Virus record (IMG/VR): IMGVR_UViG_3300047509_000221
Coordinates: 1-64,000 of that record
Length of the DNA stretch: 64,000 bases
Origin: a virus
Strand: one strand, 5' to 3'
Below the pieces are notes generated by a model. That model had not been told where the DNA came from, ran no database searches, and worked only from the letters and a program-made list of their open reading frames with translations. Positions within the stretch are counted from its first letter, which is position 1; each line of letters starts with the position of its first letter. Both the position numbers and the translations under genes were made by a program. Of the stretch, positions 6,862-56,535 are shown piece by piece.

Positions 6862-7410
6862 CTAGGCTGCCTGCTGGTCTGGCACCTGCAGGACCTCGTC
6901 CGCAGGCGCGAGACGGATGAAACACCGCTCCTGGTCCCACTGGAGGTCGCCGCGCGTTCCGCCCGCACGGAGGAACTCGGCAACTGTCATGCCGTCCACG
7001 TACAAGGCGAAGCGGTCATGGGCAGCGGTGCCCGGTCTCTTCGGGTTCCGGTCCGCGAGGACCCTGATGAGTCTCGTGTCAGTCGTTGCCTCTCGCGCGC
7101 TCACGGGGGCAGCTATCGCTCTCGGCGTCAGCAGCTGTCTCTCACGCTCGACCTCGGTCGCGGTGCGACGGTCGATCGGCTTCATGATGAGGTGCTCGGT
7201 GGCGGAGACGGCGGCGACGGTGTGCTGGTGTGCCAGGCTCATGACTATCTCGGCCTGAGAGATGTGCTCTGAGATGCAGTATCCGAGGAACTCCTCGGGG
7301 TCAGTGATCTCCGGAATGGTGTTTCTGGCTGTCCGCAGTCCTGCGAGACAGCAAGAAAGCTGCTCAGCGTTGAGGGTGCAGAATGCCTCGTGGTAGCGCG
7401 GATGAATCAT
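6862..7410 (-). CDS. Protein carrying the NPKR/GMT C-terminal module (182 aa)
   Basis: ATGs at 7425 and 7410 are both possible; the latter has GGGGA upstream. The N-terminal half has AFCTLNAEQLSCCLAGLR and a helix with HISQAEIVMSLAHQH. The last 65 residues form a module with NPKRPGTAAHDRFALYVDGM, TVAEFL, GGTRGDLQWD and CFIRLA. The same module ends the proteins at 45326-46021 and 54676-55110. Its function is unknown; its reuse in three contexts suggests a binding domain. This is the first gene of the leftward block and lies just downstream of a strong promoter. Confidence 0.75.
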   Translation of the reverse strand: MIHPRYHEAFCTLNAEQLSCCLAGLRTARNTIPEITDPEEFLGYCISEHISQAEIVMSLAHQHTVAAVSATEHLIMKPIDRRTATEVERERQLLTPRAIAAPVSAREATTDTRLIRVLADRNPKRPGTAAHDRFALYVDGMTVAEFLRAGGTRGDLQWDQERCFIRLAPADEVLQVPDQQAA

Positions 7411-7472
7411 CGGCGGTGTCCCCATCTAGTGCGTGGTCCCATCGGCGGACGGGTGTGGCCCCACGTGACACC

Positions 7473-7500
7473 ACTATACGCGCACGGCGGCCTGTGTAAA
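7473..7500 (-). promoter_or_regulatory. Leftward promoter TTTACA-16-TATAGT
   Basis: The minus strand shows TTTACA, a 16-base spacer and TATAGT, the closest match to a consensus -10 in this arm. It lies about 50-65 bases before the first leftward gene and probably drives the whole 1-7.4 kb block. Confidence 0.7.
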
Positions 7501-7636
7501 GGGGCTATTAACGGGCTGGGGCTTTACTGCAGGGACGGGTCAGGTGTATGCCTACCCCGACTCAGTGTCGAGCCAGTCTCCGCTGAATGCAGCCGGGGTG
7601 CGTCTCCTCGGCGGGTCTCGCGCCCCGGCTGCTATT

Positions 7637-7665
7637 GGTGCTATTGAGCGCTATTACTTTTTTCA
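7637..7665 (+). repeat. Switch element copy A
   Basis: Plus-strand copy: GGTGCTATTGA, then GCGC, then TATTACTTTTTTCA. An extra CTATTGG half-unit nine bases upstream makes three CTATT units spaced 9-10 bases, close to one helical turn. Nearly identical to copy G at 39981-40014. Confidence 0.7.
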
Positions 7666-7759
7666 CGCTGTTTCAATAGGGTCTCCACCGAGGGGTGGAC
7701 AATCTGTGCTATGGGTTTTTCCTACGCGCGGGCGCGGGTAGCAGCAGAAATTTGCTGGC

Positions 7760-7791
7760 AAATCCTGGAAAAAGTAATAAAGTAATAGCAC
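7760..7791 (-). repeat. Switch element copy B (inverted)
   Basis: Read on the minus strand this is GTGCTATTAC, TTTATTACTTTTTCC, AGGATT. Its ends match copy G (GTGCTATT at one side, CAGGATT at the other) across about 32 bases, in the opposite orientation to copy A. Confidence 0.7.
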
Positions 7792-7824
7792 GGCGGTGTT
7801 TGCTGTGTGATAACAGTGACTTAC

Positions 7825-7845
7825 TGCTATTGAAGTCTCTGTGGA
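7825..7845 (+). repeat. Switch element, partial copy C
   Basis: Only the first half is preserved: TGCTATTGAAG followed by unrelated sequence. The eleven bases are identical to the start of copy G. Confidence 0.4.
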
Positions 7846-7860
7846 AAACCAATAACCGGG

Positions 7861-7888
7861 GCCGGAAAGTAATATCGTCAATATCGGG
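7861..7888 (-). repeat. Switch element copy D (inverted)
   Basis: The minus strand reads CCCGATATTGACG then ATATTACTTTCCGGC, keeping both half-units (ATATTGA and TATTACTTT) at the same spacing as copies A and G but with a diverged flank. Confidence 0.55.
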
Positions 7889-7933
7889 GATTAATCAACC
7901 TTTACAGTCGCATGTGGGGATGGTGCCTTTGCC

Positions 7934-7963
7934 TTTACCATGGTCCTCTGGGCGCGCTATGAG
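7934..7963 (+). promoter_or_regulatory. Candidate rightward promoter TTTACC-18-TATGAG
   Basis: A TTTACC hexamer with an 18-base spacer precedes TATGAG, about 115 bases before the first rightward gene. The match is weaker than the leftward promoters; the real late promoter could instead be one of the nearby repeated elements. Confidence 0.35.
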
Positions 7964-49724: not shown

Positions 49725-50122
49725 TGGACGAGGACCAGATCAGGGAGCACATCGGAGAGCAGGAGTGGCCGGACTGCCAGTGCTTTCGGCATCGTGGTGG
49801 GGACGTCTGCACCCGGCTCTACACCATGGCGACGGAGTACTCAATGTCCATGGCCCACGACGCGACTGAGGAGGGCTTCTGTCCCACGGCCATGCCACTG
49901 GTGGCGGCGCTGACTGTCGACATGCTCCTGACCCGCGTGGCCGCAGCAATGACCCTCATCAGCAGGCCCGGAATAACCGAGGTGACGCCCGCGACCTCTG
50001 TAGAACTGTCGGCCCACAAGCGTGAGCTGCACCGCATGGTCGCTGAGCGACTGGCCTCGCTGGAGCGGCGCAGCGAGAGGGAGTGTATGCTCAATGCAGG
50101 AGGAAGCGCCAGTGTTCAGTAG
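49724..50122 (+). CDS. Hypothetical protein (132 aa) between glycosyltransferase and synthase
   Basis: ATG shares TGATG with the glycosyltransferase stop. MDEDQIREHIGEQEWPDCQC, CFRHRGGDVCTRLYTMATEY and helical remainder (LTVDMLLTRVAAAMTLIS). Three cysteines and several histidines in the first 50 residues could form a metal site. No family is recognised. Position implies a role with the modification enzymes. Confidence 0.6.
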   Translation: MDEDQIREHIGEQEWPDCQCFRHRGGDVCTRLYTMATEYSMSMAHDATEEGFCPTAMPLVAALTVDMLLTRVAAAMTLISRPGITEVTPATSVELSAHKRELHRMVAERLASLERRSERECMLNAGGSASVQ

Positions 50123-51263
50123 TCTGCAGGTCCGCAATGTCCAGGAGGCCTACGTTCGGGGTCTCCAGCTGGTCCGCCGCGAGGGGCAGCTGGAGGAGAC
50201 GCGCAACGGCCCGGCCCTGGTCATCCCGTGGCCAGTCGTCACGATCTACGAGCGCCCGTACGAGCGCGTCCTACTGGACCCGGTCCGCGACGCCAACCCA
50301 TTTTTCCACCTCATGGAGAGCATCTGGATGCTGGCCGGACGCGGTGACGTGGCCAGTCTCGAGCCGTTCAACGCCGGGCTCAAGCGGTACTCCGACGACG
50401 GCCGAACATACCATGGAGCCTACGGCTGGCGCTGGCGCAACTGGTTTGAGGACATGAGCGAACACAGCTGCATGCATCAGGAGGACGGTCCCAACATAGA
50501 CCAGCTGGCCGAGGTCATCGAGCTCCTGAGGGCCAATCCCGGCGACCGGCGCGTGGTCCTGCAGATGTGGGACCCGGTCAGCGACCTCGGGAAGCAGGGC
50601 CTGGACTTCCCGTGCAATACCCAGTGTCTCTTTCGCGTTCGGCGGAGACCGGGCGGTGGGTGGAACATGGGAGTGAACGACCTGGACATGACGATCTTCA
50701 ATCGCTCCAATGACGCCATCTGGGGAGCCTACGGCGCCAACGCCGTGCACTTCAGCGTGCTGCAGGAGTTCGTGGCGGCGGCGATAGGCTGCTCCGTCGG
50801 CCACATGTACCAGTGGAGTAACAATCTGCACGCCTACTGCGAGACCCTGGACAAGGTCGGAGAGCCCCGGTTGTACACCCGTCGGGGACTGGGCCCAATG
50901 CCGCAGGACGCCTCAGGGCCTACCGTAGGTCTCACGATGTACGAGGACCCCAGCTTCCGGGCCGACCCGCTCTTCAATCCCCACGAGGCGAAGAAGGTGC
51001 CAGCGGAAGAGCTCTTCCGACAGGTCGAGGCGTTCTGGGACGGCTCGGACGAGGTGGGGCGGCCGGACGACCGACGCGACGTATTCTCCTCGCGCGGCAT
51101 CAGCACACTGATCATGATGCGGCAGGCATACCGCAGCTTCAAGAGCAAGGACTACGCGAATGCGGACAGCTGTGCAGGAGAAGTCCTCCTCCTCGACTGG
51201 AGACGAGCCTGCGTCGAGTGGCTCGAGCGTCGCGCCACGGCAAGGGCGGCCCGTGACGCTTGA
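50112..51263 (+). CDS. Thymidylate synthase superfamily enzyme, probable dUMP 5-hydroxymethylase
   Basis: The core is that of ThyA-type enzymes: VVLQMWDPVSDLG, LDFPCNTQCLFRVR with the catalytic cysteine in PCN (thymidylate synthases have PCH), IFNRSNDAIWGAYGANAVHF and GHMYQ. The Asn of GANAVH is at the place that selects uracil over cytosine, so dUMP is the likely substrate. The PCN motif and the neighbouring modification genes favour 5-hydroxymethyl-dUMP as product rather than dTMP. A GTG eight bases after AGGAGG is chosen over an ATG six codons upstream. Confidence 0.85.
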   Translation: MFSSLQVRNVQEAYVRGLQLVRREGQLEETRNGPALVIPWPVVTIYERPYERVLLDPVRDANPFFHLMESIWMLAGRGDVASLEPFNAGLKRYSDDGRTYHGAYGWRWRNWFEDMSEHSCMHQEDGPNIDQLAEVIELLRANPGDRRVVLQMWDPVSDLGKQGLDFPCNTQCLFRVRRRPGGGWNMGVNDLDMTIFNRSNDAIWGAYGANAVHFSVLQEFVAAAIGCSVGHMYQWSNNLHAYCETLDKVGEPRLYTRRGLGPMPQDASGPTVGLTMYEDPSFRADPLFNPHEAKKVPAEELFRQVEAFWDGSDEVGRPDDRRDVFSSRGISTLIMMRQAYRSFKSKDYANADSCAGEVLLLDWRRACVEWLERRATARAARDA

Positions 51264-51774
51264 CCCTGTCCGCTCGGACCCGCGCCGGGGCGGAGCGGTC
51301 AAGAGATACCACACGTGGCCCATCATCCAGTCGCAGACCGTGGCCGAGCACAGCTGGAATGTCGTCCGCATTCTCGTGTCCATCTGGCCAATGGCCCCCG
51401 TGACGGCCATCCTATTCGCCCAGTTCCACGACACGCCCGAGGTCGCGACCGGCGACCCCCCGTACCCGATCAAGGCGGAGAACCCACTGCTCAAGTCGGA
51501 GCACGACAGGCTGGAGGTCGAGGCCGCCACGGCCATGGGCATTGCCGATCACCTGCGCGTCGACGAGCACTGGCGCAGGCGCGTCAAACTGTGCGACGTC
51601 ATCGAGATGTGGGAGTTCGGTCTCGACGAGATGATGCTCGGCAGCCACTTTGCCGAGCCAATCGTAGGCAGAATGTGGGACCTGCACGCCGCACTCATGG
51701 AGCAGGCCCACTTCAGTGCATCGGAGCGCCAGAGGGTCGCCCGGTATCTCTGCACCCGCAGGAGGACACCATGA
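51253..51774 (+). CDS. HD-domain nucleotidase (YfbR-like, 173 aa)
   Basis: QTVAEHSWNVVRILVSIW holds the first His, AQFHDTPEVATGDPPYPIKA the HD pair with following Glu, and KLCDVIEMWEFGLDEM the last Asp. This matches 5'-deoxynucleotidases and dNTP hydrolases of the HD superfamily. It could remove dTMP or dTTP to keep normal thymidine out of phage DNA, or supply dUMP precursors. The GTG start overlaps the synthase gene by 11 bases. Confidence 0.85.
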   Translation: MTLDPVRSDPRRGGAVKRYHTWPIIQSQTVAEHSWNVVRILVSIWPMAPVTAILFAQFHDTPEVATGDPPYPIKAENPLLKSEHDRLEVEAATAMGIADHLRVDEHWRRRVKLCDVIEMWEFGLDEMMLGSHFAEPIVGRMWDLHAALMEQAHFSASERQRVARYLCTRRRTP

Positions 51775-52604
51775 CTGACATGCGCTACATGGCCCGGCTC
51801 CGCGACGTCGTGGACGACGCTGTCGGACTGATCGAGGACAAGAGCCAGACATACAAGGATAGCTGGAAGCGCCGGGGCGGCGCTGGTGCCTGGTTCACTG
51901 TCGTCCGTCCCTGGGACCGGCTGGAGACAATCGTCGCCCGGCACGGCGGAGACATCTTCGCTGCGATAGCAGCCGACCCGTTCGGCGCAGACGGCTCGGC
52001 CCTGGCCTGCGTCCGCGACGTCATGAACTACATGATTCTGACCGAGGCCGAATGCCGCACCAGCCACGGCGTCGGGCCGCACGGGCCCGAGAGACCCATG
52101 CCAATCAAGACCATCGAAGAGGTCAGAGTCGAGCTGGGCCTCCTCTACTGCGACCACTGCGGCGAGCCCAGGGACCACATCTGCGTCAGCACCATGGGAC
52201 ACTTCTTCTGCGGCCGTGTCTGCGCCGAGCAGTACGTGGACGAGCAGAACAAGAAGTGTCTCCAGGTCTTTCCCACCTTCGTCCCCGGCACCCCGGAGGA
52301 CGGCGGACACCACGCCGCGCACTGCGAAGAGTGTGACTGCGCTCCCGGCCACCCGCACGAGCGGTTCTGCTCTAAGGCCCCCCCAGCCTGGACACACACC
52401 AGAGTCGCTGGAGAGGTCACACAGGACAGCGACGAGACGGCGAGTACCGGCCCCTCGCCGCGTCGTGCCACTATTCCAGTGACCCTCGGAGGCTTCGGAG
52501 ACGACAGACGCGACGAGTTCGCCAGAGTAGTCAGGGAGACGGCGGCTCTCCTCGGCCTCGAGATGACTGTCTCGTGGGACAAGACTGAGTTCACACTGAG
52601 CTGA
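51771..52604 (+). CDS. Nmad1 (DUF1599) protein with a C-terminal cysteine cluster (277 aa)
   Basis: The first 93 residues (VVDDAVGLIEDKSQTYKDSW, WFTVVRPWDRLETIV, ALACVRDVMNYMILTEAE) fit DUF1599, also called nucleotide modification associated domain 1, which co-occurs with phage DNA modification genes. A second part has YCDHCGEPRDHICVST, FFCGRVCAEQYVDEQ and HCEECDCAPGH, a likely zinc domain. The last 50 residues form a separate alpha/beta piece. ATGA links it to the nucleotidase gene. Confidence 0.75.
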   Translation: MTDMRYMARLRDVVDDAVGLIEDKSQTYKDSWKRRGGAGAWFTVVRPWDRLETIVARHGGDIFAAIAADPFGADGSALACVRDVMNYMILTEAECRTSHGVGPHGPERPMPIKTIEEVRVELGLLYCDHCGEPRDHICVSTMGHFFCGRVCAEQYVDEQNKKCLQVFPTFVPGTPEDGGHHAAHCEECDCAPGHPHERFCSKAPPAWTHTRVAGEVTQDSDETASTGPSPRRATIPVTLGGFGDDRRDEFARVVRETAALLGLEMTVSWDKTEFTLS

Positions 52605-54643
52605 TGTCACGCACCCAGCCAAGTTTCGACCAGACGGACATGTTCCCTCCGGTCTCTGACTGGGTGGCACCGACGAGCCTGCCAGTGGTACCTGACGGCA
52701 CACTCGTGGCGATCGACACCGAGACCTGCGACCGGGGCCTCCAGCGCGGTCAGGCCCCCAGCTGGGTGAACCAGGACGGCTGGCTCTGCGGTGTCAGCTG
52801 GGCATGGGCGGGGGGAGACGGCTATGCCCCAATCAGGCATCCGGACACGCCGGGCTGCTTCGACCCAGACGTCGTCGGAGCGTGGCTCACTGACCTCTCC
52901 CGGCGCTGCCGAGTGGTCTTCCAGAACGGCCCGTACGACATGGGATGGACCGGTGTGCGGCCCGACCAGCCCGACGACGTCCACACGATGGCCGTCCTGC
53001 TCGACGAGAACCGGACCTACTACAACCTGGACGCCCTCTGCGAGTGGCAGGGCATCCCGGGCAAGGACGAGACCCTGCTGCGAGAGGCCGTGATCGCCTG
53101 CGGGGGCAATCCGAAGCGCGTCAAGGAGCACATACATCAGCTGGCCGGGCGGTACGTCGGTCCCTATGCCACGCAGGACGCCGTGTCGACTCTTATGCTG
53201 GCCGAGAGATTTCTGCCGCAGCTCGAGGCCAATGGCCTCGTTGAGGCATACGAGCTAGAGTGTGCGCTGACCCCGCACGTACTCGAGATGCGGCGGCGCG
53301 GCATACCGATCAACGTCGACCGGGCCGAGCAGAATCAGCAGCGGCTGAGGCAGCTTGCTGTGCAGGAACTTGCGGCCCTGACAGACATCCTCGGCCTGCG
53401 CCGAGGCGTCACCATCGAGAATGTCCGATCGCCCATCTGGCTCGAGCACACGTTCACCGAGCTCGGCGTTCCCTTCCCCCGTACAGCCAAGACGCGGCAG
53501 GGCAGCTTTGAGAAGGAGTGGTTGGAGAGATGTGCCCACCCTGCGGCCAGGCACATAGCCCAGGCACGGGCGCTGCACGACGGGGCCGAGAAGTTCATCG
53601 GCACCTACATCATGGAGCACCTGGACCGGGGTCGCATCCACGCGGAGATTCACCAGCTGCGCTCGGAGGAGGGCGGGACGCGGACGTTCCGGTTCTCGTA
53701 CAGCAATCCCCCTCTCCAGCAGATGAACAGGGCGGAGCCGGACCGCACCAATCCCGACCACCGCGACTACACGCCAGGCTTCATCGACATCGGGACGATG
53801 ATCAGGGAGTGCTTCGTGCCGGAGGACGGCTGCGTCTGGTCAGCACCAGACTACAGCCAGCAGGAGTATCGGCTCATCGTCCACTACTCGGCTCGGCTGG
53901 GACTGAAGAAGGCCGACGAGGCCGTGACCTACTACCAGGAGCACGAGGACGCGGACTTCCACAATCTCGTCGTTGAGATGACTGGCCTGCGCCGCAAGCG
54001 CGCCAAGGACTGCAACTTCGCCAAGGCGTTCGGCGCGGGCATCCCCAAGTTCGCCCTGATGACCGGCATGTCCCTGGAAGAGGCCGCTGAGACCATGGGC
54101 ACGTACGACGAGAAGCTGCCCTTCGTCGCCCAGCTGGGCGACCGCTGCAAGGTGATGGCTGACCGCAAGGGATACGTCCGCCTCCTGGACGGCAGGAGAA
54201 GGCGCTTCGACCAGTGGGAGGCGTCCTGGATACCGAAGGAGGAGTGGGAGGAGGGCCGCCTCGCCGGGCACATGATGACGCCCTGCAGTCTCGAGGAGGC
54301 CCACAAGCGACAGGCCATCCAGGATCACCCGTGGCGGGGCAAGCGCCTGCGCCGGGCGGACACCCGCAAGGCGGGCAACTCAATAATCCAGGGCGGTGCA
54401 GCTGTCCAGACAAAGAAGGCGCTTCTGCAGTGTGCCCGGGAGGGACTGCTCCCCATTCTGCAGATGCACGACGAGCTGTGCTTCTCGTCCTCCTCGCAGA
54501 GGGAGGCTGACAGGCCGGCAGAGATCATGAGGGACGTGGTGCCGCTCCTGGTTCCCGTCCGCGTGGACAACGTGCACGGCCCAGACTGGGGCCGAGCCAA
54601 GTACATGTACGAGGAGGCACAAAAAATGAGGGCCGCCCGCTAG
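52604..54643 (+). CDS. polA-like: Family A DNA polymerase with 3'-5' exonuclease domain (679 aa)
   Basis: The exonuclease domain starts with LVAIDTETCDRG (Asp-x-Glu) and continues through VVFQNGPYDMGWTG and RYVGPYATQDAVSTLMLAE. Polymerase motif A is APDYSQQEYRLIVHYS (about 410), motif B is RKRAKDCNFAKAFGAG (about 463) and motif C is LQMHDELCFSS (about 619). There is no 5' nuclease domain, as usual for phage enzymes. It is the replicase and must accept the modified pyrimidine if modification occurs at the nucleotide stage. TGATG coupling to the Nmad1 gene. Confidence 0.95.
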   Translation: MSRTQPSFDQTDMFPPVSDWVAPTSLPVVPDGTLVAIDTETCDRGLQRGQAPSWVNQDGWLCGVSWAWAGGDGYAPIRHPDTPGCFDPDVVGAWLTDLSRRCRVVFQNGPYDMGWTGVRPDQPDDVHTMAVLLDENRTYYNLDALCEWQGIPGKDETLLREAVIACGGNPKRVKEHIHQLAGRYVGPYATQDAVSTLMLAERFLPQLEANGLVEAYELECALTPHVLEMRRRGIPINVDRAEQNQQRLRQLAVQELAALTDILGLRRGVTIENVRSPIWLEHTFTELGVPFPRTAKTRQGSFEKEWLERCAHPAARHIAQARALHDGAEKFIGTYIMEHLDRGRIHAEIHQLRSEEGGTRTFRFSYSNPPLQQMNRAEPDRTNPDHRDYTPGFIDIGTMIRECFVPEDGCVWSAPDYSQQEYRLIVHYSARLGLKKADEAVTYYQEHEDADFHNLVVEMTGLRRKRAKDCNFAKAFGAGIPKFALMTGMSLEEAAETMGTYDEKLPFVAQLGDRCKVMADRKGYVRLLDGRRRRFDQWEASWIPKEEWEEGRLAGHMMTPCSLEEAHKRQAIQDHPWRGKRLRRADTRKAGNSIIQGGAAVQTKKALLQCAREGLLPILQMHDELCFSSSSQREADRPAEIMRDVVPLLVPVRVDNVHGPDWGRAKYMYEEAQKMRAAR

Positions 54644-55110: not shown

Positions 55111-55141
55111 ATCGGCTCTCCTTGGCAGTATGCTGTACCGG

Positions 55142-55170
55142 CTCATACACCTCATGAGCCAGAATGTAAA
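55142..55170 (-). promoter_or_regulatory. Leftward promoter TTTACA-17-TATGAG
   Basis: TTTACA and TATGAG on the minus strand with a 17-base spacer, 32 bases before the ATG at 55110. Confidence 0.65.
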
Positions 55171-55382
55171 GCACCATGAGCGACGGCGTCACCGAGAGAG
55201 TCCTTCGCATCGGCGGAGAGAGGCGCTGGCGCGGGAGAGAGGCGGAGCCCGGCGCTCGCTCCTGCTCAAGTGGGTTGTCCAGCTCAGGGAAGCGGCAGAC
55301 TCTCTGGAGAGGAGCGCACGTGGTCACTAGCCCATCGGTCGCTCTGCACGGTACAGTGGCCCGGACCACCGGGGGCGGGGCC

Positions 55383-56087
55383 ATGAGAATACTGCACGTC
55401 GACCACTGCGATGATCGATATCTGGAGATGGTACTCACGTGCCGGAACCACGAGCTCGTCGTCCACTACGCCGAGGACGGGGACGAGGCCATCAGCATTC
55501 TGGTCCGCGACCCCTACGAGGTGGCCATTGTCGCGCCGGGTCTCCAAGACTTCGAGGGCTGCGAACTCATCCGCCGTCTGCGGGCCTGCCGGGTCCACAT
55601 CCCAATCATCCTCCTCGGCGACAGGACGACGCCCGAGTACCGAGCGCGGGCGCTCTGGGACGGGGCCGACGATGTGCTGGACCTGCCGTGGGCGCGAGAC
55701 GAGATGGTCGCCCGCATCAAGAGCCTGGCCCGACGCTCCCACGGACACAGCAGCGGCATCCTCAAGGTCGGCCCGCTGATCGTCGACCAGGAGCGCATGC
55801 GAGTACTCCGGGTCGGGGTCGGCGGCGGCATGCCCATCGCCATGACCGAGAAGGAGTACCTCCTCCTCGAGCTGCTGGCCATGCGGGCCGGGCGCGTCTG
55901 CACCAAGCAGCAGATCATGGACCACCTGTACGGTGGCCGCGACGAGCCCGAGGAGAAGATCATCGACGTCTTCGTCTGCAAGATCCGCCGCAAACTCGGG
56001 GAGCTGTCCTGGGTGATCGGCACAGTCTGGGGCAGAGGCTATCTCCTCCGCACCGACCAGCCCTCCCCCGCCTATGTCGCGGCCTGA
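55383..56087 (+). CDS. CtrA-like response regulator without phosphorylation site (234 aa)
   Basis: It aligns end to end with Caulobacter CtrA (231 aa). The DNA-binding half is almost unchanged: MTEKEYLLLELLAMR, HLYGGRDEPEEKIIDVFVCK and GTVWGRGYLLRT. The receiver half keeps its fold but not its chemistry. Asp51 is Ala (IVAPGLQD for LLDLNLPD), the conserved Lys is Leu (DLPWARDEM for TKPFHKDEM), the Ser/Thr switch is Gly and the acidic pocket reads VDHCDD. The last two residues are Ala-Ala, as in CtrA, where they mark it for ClpXP. Start ATG follows a GGGG-rich leader; an open extension upstream is rejected. Confidence 0.93.
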   Translation: MRILHVDHCDDRYLEMVLTCRNHELVVHYAEDGDEAISILVRDPYEVAIVAPGLQDFEGCELIRRLRACRVHIPIILLGDRTTPEYRARALWDGADDVLDLPWARDEMVARIKSLARRSHGHSSGILKVGPLIVDQERMRVLRVGVGGGMPIAMTEKEYLLLELLAMRAGRVCTKQQIMDHLYGGRDEPEEKIIDVFVCKIRRKLGELSWVIGTVWGRGYLLRTDQPSPAYVAA

Positions 56088-56535
56088 CGACGGCCTCCGA
56101 CCGCTCTTCCACGGTCGGCTTCCTGACCTGCACTGGCAGGCCATCGAGCTCGGAGTGGTTGGGCGGGGGGTGCCCGACAGCAACTACTGCGGAGACGGGG
56201 CCGAGGGCTGGCTCGAGTTCAAGAGTACTGAGTCCCACAGTGTGGGGCTCAGGCCTGAGCAGGTGGGGTGGATACTGAGACGATGTCGCTCGGGCGGCAG
56301 GGTCTTCGTCGTGACCCGACGCCGGCACGACGGCGGACCCCTGCTGGGGCCTCCGTCGGACGAGCTGTGGATTCATGAGGGCTGGGATGCGGCAGTGCTG
56401 AAGGCGGAGGGTCTGAACGCGGCACCACCGGTCCTCCACCAGGAAGGAGGCCCCAGTCGCTGGGACTGGGGCCTCGTCAGGTCGGTACTTGTGGAGTGGG
56501 TACTCAGTCGGCGTGGTGGGCCTTCAGTGACCTGA
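56074..56535 (+). CDS. PD-(D/E)XK nuclease, Holliday junction resolvase-like (153 aa)
   Basis: GRGVPDSNYCGDGAEGWLEF then FKSTESHSVGLRPEQVGWIL and RVFVVTRRR give the Asp, the Glu-x-Lys pair (LEFK) and the QVGW helix typical of small VRR-NUC/resolvase-type nucleases. It overlaps the CtrA-like gene by 14 bases and so is translated with it. The ORF runs through a strong hairpin and overlaps the convergent gene at 56504, so the last 30 codons are uncertain. Confidence 0.78.
   Translation: MSRPDDGLRPLFHGRLPDLHWQAIELGVVGRGVPDSNYCGDGAEGWLEFKSTESHSVGLRPEQVGWILRRCRSGGRVFVVTRRRHDGGPLLGPPSDELWIHEGWDAAVLKAEGLNAAPPVLHQEGGPSRWDWGLVRSVLVEWVLSRRGGPSVT
56447..56475 (+). terminator. Perfect 12-bp hairpin inside 3' end of nuclease gene
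   Basis: GAGGCCCCAGTC pairs without mismatch with GACTGGGGCCTC over a five-base loop. It is placed where a terminator between the convergent genes would be expected, yet the nuclease frame continues 60 bases beyond it. Confidence 0.7.

Follow-up and report, generated by a model that had tools for sequence, protein, structure and literature searches.

In many Alphaproteobacteria, CtrA controls the timing of replication, division, motility and pilus formation. Alphaproteobacterial phages that engage the host cell-cycle circuit are already known: some read host CtrA through clustered CtrA boxes, as in lytic deferment, and others, such as phiCbK, carry a GcrA homologue (PMC9437464). A phage CtrA without a receiver domain, that of RDJL Phi 1, has been noted in passing (PMC6363796). 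Atypical response regulators are also known as a class. Many pseudo-receiver regulators appear to owe their activity to phosphorylation-free dimerisation through α4-β5-α5, and in aspartate-less receivers the place of the Asp is most often taken by Glu (PMC12632262). ChxR and HP1043 are worked examples of phosphorylation-independent dimers formed through the same face (PMC3960148). A literature search, which largely covered work outside subscription journals, found no paper on a full-length phage CtrA with an erased phosphorylation site or on the recurrence of such proteins.

We compared these systems with a CtrA-like protein encoded in the window, a 64,000-nt stretch of a virus record of 65,948 bases in all (Table 1). 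Similar to RDJL Phi 1 gp37 and its relatives (Rhodobacter Rc gp59, Paracoccus R3, RDJL3), the protein would be a phage CtrA DNA-binding domain freed from the phosphorelay. However, the RDJL Phi 1-type proteins have no receiver (151 aa, or another N-terminal part), whereas the window protein keeps the receiver fold and the dimer face around a dead site. It shares the OmpR/PhoB architecture, the missing active-site residues and the kept dimer face with HP1043, ChxR, CosR and GlnR, but those regulators are bacterial and not CtrA-derived, and the phosphorylation-independence that is reported for them we infer for the phage protein. Like the GcrA-carrying and lytic-deferment phages, the window phage would engage the host cell-cycle circuit; unlike the latter, whose CtrA-box clusters are read by host CtrA, it lacks any exact box and encodes a CtrA-like protein itself.

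Table 1. Features of the CtrA-like gene and its surroundings in the window
Feature	Coordinates	Strand	Evidence or remark
CtrA-like atypical response regulator, 234 aa	55383..56087	+	profile searches, BLASTP, host-CtrA alignment, AlphaFold2
Pseudo-receiver domain, residues 1-118, predicted to fold as a complete (βα)5 domain, phosphorylation site lost	55383..55736	+	
Codon 51, Ala replaces phosphoacceptor Asp51	55533..55535	+	
α4-β5-α5 dimer face, residues 84-118	55632..55736	+	D96, D97, E107, R111, R118 kept; K87 to Arg
Winged-helix DNA-binding domain, residues 128-225	55764..56057	+	45/65 host-conserved positions kept
C-terminal Val-Ala-Ala, candidate ClpXP-type degron	56076..56084	+	overlaps start of next ORF
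Variable locus	55133..56081	.	950 bp in window vs 300 bp in G002, same two neighbours
Upstream neighbour, 159 aa	54676..55155	-	conserved in G002
Downstream neighbour, 153 aa, phrog_2165 (annotated DNA helicase)	56074..56535	+	conserved in G002
Family A DNA polymerase of the phage	52604..54643	+	

The CtrA-like gene is phage-encoded, as the initial annotation had stated, and lies in a true tailed-phage genome. In the window are genes for the large terminase, portal, head protease and tape measure, and also for a helicase and a family A DNA polymerase. Wrongly binned host DNA was ruled out, because terminase, portal, tape measure and polymerase are on the same genome and a relative shares both neighbours of the gene. 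Among isolated phages, the portal was closest to those of the Brevundimonas pondensis phages Polewnik and Strzyga (43% identity), and these portal relatives agree with an alphaproteobacterial host, perhaps of the Caulobacterales. The ORF is intact, and its codon-position GC (0.70/0.41/0.89) resembles that of the phage terminase and DNA polymerase (0.66/0.45/0.85 for the latter). An alternative in-frame start is found at 55176, upstream of Met 55383; the latter was taken as the start because the CtrA alignment begins there and the stretch 55176-55383 has no coding signature. An ORF with a thymidylate synthase domain and, after it, a YfbR-like HD nucleotidase domain (50022-51774) make up a nucleotide-metabolism module upstream of the DNA polymerase.

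The relative that shares both neighbours, G002 (63.6 kb), is colinear with the window phage at ~78% nucleotide identity, and the CtrA-like gene is absent from the 300 bp between the same neighbours. The gene is thus an accessory insertion adjoining replication genes; the downstream neighbour was judged by eye to be PD-(D/E)xK-nuclease-like. Moreover, the window-type portal was identified in only 2 of 26 CtrA-carrying viral contigs searched, indicating that the CtrA gene moves between unrelated phages.

Pfam identified Response_reg (44 bits) and Trans_reg_C (71 bits) in the protein, that is, a receiver and an OmpR-type winged helix colinear with CtrA. The top NCBIfam model was CtrA (NF045991) at 187 bits, with the next regulator at 119 bits. 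BLASTP against Caulobacter CtrA gave a full-length match of 35% identity (2e-51); this reference sequence was backed by 80 host CtrA loci from genomes. When 77 of these loci and the Caulobacter sequence were aligned (78 in total), the closest host CtrA was 46% identical to the phage protein. The linker RRS-GH and the HLYGG-DEPE, KIIDVF-CK and TVWGRGY motifs were all retained. The colinear match to Caulobacter CtrA that had been described at first reading was recovered, together with the Ala-Ala end and the kept motifs (including TVWGRGY-LR). An ordinary OmpR regulator was ruled out by the NCBIfam ranking and the CtrA-only motifs. By these comparisons the phage protein is CtrA-derived, with homology far beyond chance. 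It has the domain order, colinearity, linker, DNA-binding signature, recognition helix and terminal Ala-Ala of canonical CtrA, but differs from it in that all phosphorylation-site residues are replaced, identity is 35-46%, the gene is a phage accessory gene and the score falls below the 350-bit NCBIfam cut-off for CtrA orthologues. Single-sequence searches for relatives in the viral and genome collections gave no match, and relatives were reached only through alignment and DNA-pattern searches. The branch of the protein in the tree is very long (3.3 changes per site) and without a close relative, and owing to this long branch the tree gives no firm placement among hosts or viruses.

At the active site, E7, D8, D9, D51, S79, Y98 and K101 (Caulobacter numbering) correspond to D, H, C, A, G, V and L in the phage protein, a match to the host consensus of 0/7 in which the change of E7 to Asp is conservative. 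The initial annotation had listed D51A, K101L and S79G, and these hold in the host-CtrA alignment; the replacement of the acidic pair D8/D9 by His/Cys and of the switch residue Tyr98 by Val adds to that list. A substitute acidic residue was sought at the end of strand 3 and none was found; D56, the acidic residue that follows, is an Asp in CtrA as well. Helix 1 of the receiver is the docking helix for the phosphotransfer partner, and its docking face retains 1 of 13 host-consensus residues. The alignment therefore shows a receiver without phosphorylation chemistry and with most of the kinase/ChpT docking helix gone, and the proposed uncoupling from the host phosphorelay is upheld at the sequence level.

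In contrast to the active site (0/7), the dimer face keeps 5 of 6 residues and the sixth is a Lys-to-Arg change (Fisher p = 0.005, with positions picked from knowledge of the family before counting). The phage protein has both residue pairs, D97-R111 and D96-R118, that in KdpE form conserved salt bridges between the subunits (PMC4773095). The DNA-binding half had been described as kept, which agrees with the count of conserved positions (Table 1) and with a recognition helix that retains 12 of 16 residues. Judged from the alignment, the recognition helix is nearly unchanged and the DNA-binding domain is of the CtrA type. L187E, a non-conservative change, lies directly before the recognition helix, and DNA specificity may have shifted as a result. 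AlphaFold2, for which the input alignment consisted of the window and locus sequences only, gave a mean pLDDT of 86.8 and a complete receiver and winged helix. The best small-rmsd full-length superpositions, with both domains in register, were with the DNA-bound regulators PmrA (4s04, TM 0.82) and CosR (8uvk/8uvx, TM 0.79-0.81), and the predicted receiver matched the Brucella CtrA receiver 4qpj with a TM of 0.94 by target length. The receiver fold is thus predicted to be retained despite the dead site, and the kept dimer face favours an active dimer rather than a simple competitor.

A lost switch with a kept face and a kept DNA-binding domain fits the phosphorylation-independent pseudo-receiver class. 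With a probability of roughly 0.55, we propose that the protein is a CtrA-derived atypical regulator, phosphorylation-independent, constitutive and controlled by its amount, which acts on host CtrA sites. It would dimerise via the α4-β5-α5 face without phosphorylation, as ChxR and HP1043 do, and the dimer would bind CtrA boxes in the host chromosome during infection, so that part of the host CtrA programme would be imposed or blocked whatever the state of CckA-ChpT. Its amount would be set by synthesis from the phage and by removal by ClpXP via the Ala-Ala tail. The most attractive outcome would be a host held in a replication-silent, CtrA-on state. Overexpression of CtrA D51A in Rhodobacter capsulatus increased gene-transfer-agent activity 2-fold (PMC6363796), indicating that an Ala51 CtrA is not automatically inert.

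An IMG/VR alignment and pattern scans identified 24 distinct full-length viral homologues besides the window protein (n = 25). Residue 51 was Asp in nine of them, Glu in five, Asn in three, Ala in two and other or lost in six. Asp51 was therefore absent in 16/25 viral homologues versus 1/78 host CtrAs (p = 1e-11), where the residue-51 state is alignment-dependent in the very divergent L139 and L207 and some viral sequences are mutually related. The scans demanded recognition-helix or HLYGG motifs or similar, so that conservation of the DNA-binding part is partly selected, while residue 51 is not. On the tree, which is poorly resolved, seven changes in total account for the loss of Asp51, counting one host sequence, and at least 4-5 for viral ownership. 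Phage structural or replication genes were found on all eight homologue contigs that were sampled for large ORFs. The combination of a lost site and a kept dimer face recurs in other viral lineages (L233, L154, L164 and the L168 group). In the L168 group (L168, L180, L186 and L203) the active site is wholly gone, and dN/dS was ~0.18 for the pseudo-receiver and 0.05-0.10 for the DNA-binding part (pairs with L186); this constraint on the pseudo-receiver indicates that a dead receiver can be a working part. Taken together, these results suggest that disarming of Asp51 recurred across viral relatives and that phages use phosphorylation-independent versions of CtrA.

Glu at position 51 is a known, activating phosphomimic in the laboratory. 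The full-length viral homologues with Glu51 (L014, L017, L116, L199 and L235) have most receiver residues otherwise intact. A host CtrA-like protein from a Geminicoccaceae MAG (L081) also carries Glu51, with an intact DDD/Ser/Lys pocket, and may represent a naturally phosphomimetic paralogue.

At least 51 non-redundant viral proteins carry the CtrA DNA-binding domain without a receiver, many of them behind a coiled-coil-like stretch. Named phages with such proteins include RDJL Phi 1/2/6, Rhodobacter Rc phages, Paracoccus R3, RDJL3 and Rhizobium X2_30. That receiver-less CtrA is common among viruses points to the DNA-binding half as what they keep. An Ala-Ala end was found in 22 of the 51 receiver-less proteins versus 37 of 367 (10%) other ORFs of the same loci (p = 4e-8), an enrichment that supports a conserved degron in the viral CtrA family. 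The case is weaker for the window protein, because the next gene starts (ATG at 56074) within its terminal codons (YVAA-stop) and a second reading frame thus also constrains the tail. We tentatively suggest, with less confidence than we hold for the window protein as a constitutive regulator, that viruses of Alphaproteobacteria may repeatedly have captured CtrA and made it into phosphorylation-independent controllers of the host regulon that are limited by protease turnover, with Asp51 erased, Asp51 mimicked or the receiver dropped as the routes of conversion. In Brevundimonas phage Polewnik, POLEWNIK_00670 (L305:47312-47767, minus strand), annotated only as a helix-like DNA-binding protein, consists of a coiled-coil-like stretch and a strongly diverged CtrA-type winged helix and adjoins a helicase; a second, receiver-less CtrA gene of this kind was sought in the window and none was found.

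The retained DNA-binding domain and dimer face, with the switch gone, would also suit a dominant-negative competitor. Such a protein would sit on CtrA boxes or draw host CtrA into dead heterodimers via the dimer face, whereby CtrA-dependent transcription would be shut down or the origin freed for replication. Given that phosphorylation stimulates binding by Caulobacter CtrA about 100-fold (PMC4241560), ordinary CtrA with Ala51 would activate weakly there. However, we consider such a competitor unlikely, since five viral homologues carry the activating mimic Glu51, several aspartate-less regulators with the same interface are active without phosphorylation (PMC12632262, PMC3960148), and the stretch around the transactivation loop (HLYGG-DEPE) is retained.

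The distribution of CtrA boxes bears on whether the captured CtrA was instead rewired to phage operators, as a lysis-timing or repressor protein for phage promoters. The exact box TTAA-N7-TTAA occurs 0 times in the 64 kb of the window phage, and TTAA was counted 13 times versus 17 expected. The only two one-mismatch boxes (7497-7511 and 7891-7905) lie 380 bp apart in one repeat-rich intergenic region, against about 0.3-0.4 (0.39) expected, and two or more appeared in 6 of 100 shuffles. This pair speaks for phage promoters as targets, as does RDJL Phi 1, in which the receiver-less CtrA adjoins a homologue of GafA, a gene transfer agent regulator (PMC6363796). Clustering of CtrA boxes was sought on the window phage and not found, and general box enrichment was not found across nine further viral contigs with CtrA homologues, which makes host promoters or the host chromosome the likelier target. 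G002 has neither an exact nor a one-mismatch box and also lacks the gene, so such a circuit would not be a core function. Given also the lack of an exact box and the TTAA count below expectation, we regard rewiring to phage promoters as doubtful, and as less probable than a competitor. Least probable of all is a degenerating cargo gene without current function: the gene is accessory and absent from G002, and its branch is very long with a highly diverged receiver, but the ORF is intact with typical codon-position GC, the dimer face and DNA-binding domain are selectively retained, the predicted fold is confident, and the same architecture is under purifying selection in the L168 phage group.

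The full-length phage CtrA without Asp51, together with 15 more viral ones (five with Glu51), would serve as natural experiments that reveal what CtrA still requires in the absence of phosphorylation control, and phage takeover of the bacterial cell cycle becomes a directly testable question. They would also form a pseudo-receiver clade whose canonical ancestors are recent, which would help to address the still open question of what turns such proteins on and off (PMC12632262).

Several further observations were made on the viral contigs. In two viral homologues (L012 and L016) the C-terminus carries a long extension (GDM(S)FR...VNVGG), similar to an additional winged-helix or DNA-binding module. 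In other viral contigs, several of them apparently proviruses (L019-L026, also L134, L146 and L166), an ordinary host ctrA is represented by its 3′ end alone, mostly near a contig end, as if these phages integrate into the 3′ part of ctrA and restore the gene. In the window, positions 7400-7950 form an AT-richer intergenic region in which CTATTG/AAAGTAATA units recur and which also holds several inverted repeats (14-nt arms, GTAAAG/CTTTAC pair). A similar CAATAG/CTATTG-rich layout is also present in G002, and the region is a candidate replication origin or control region.
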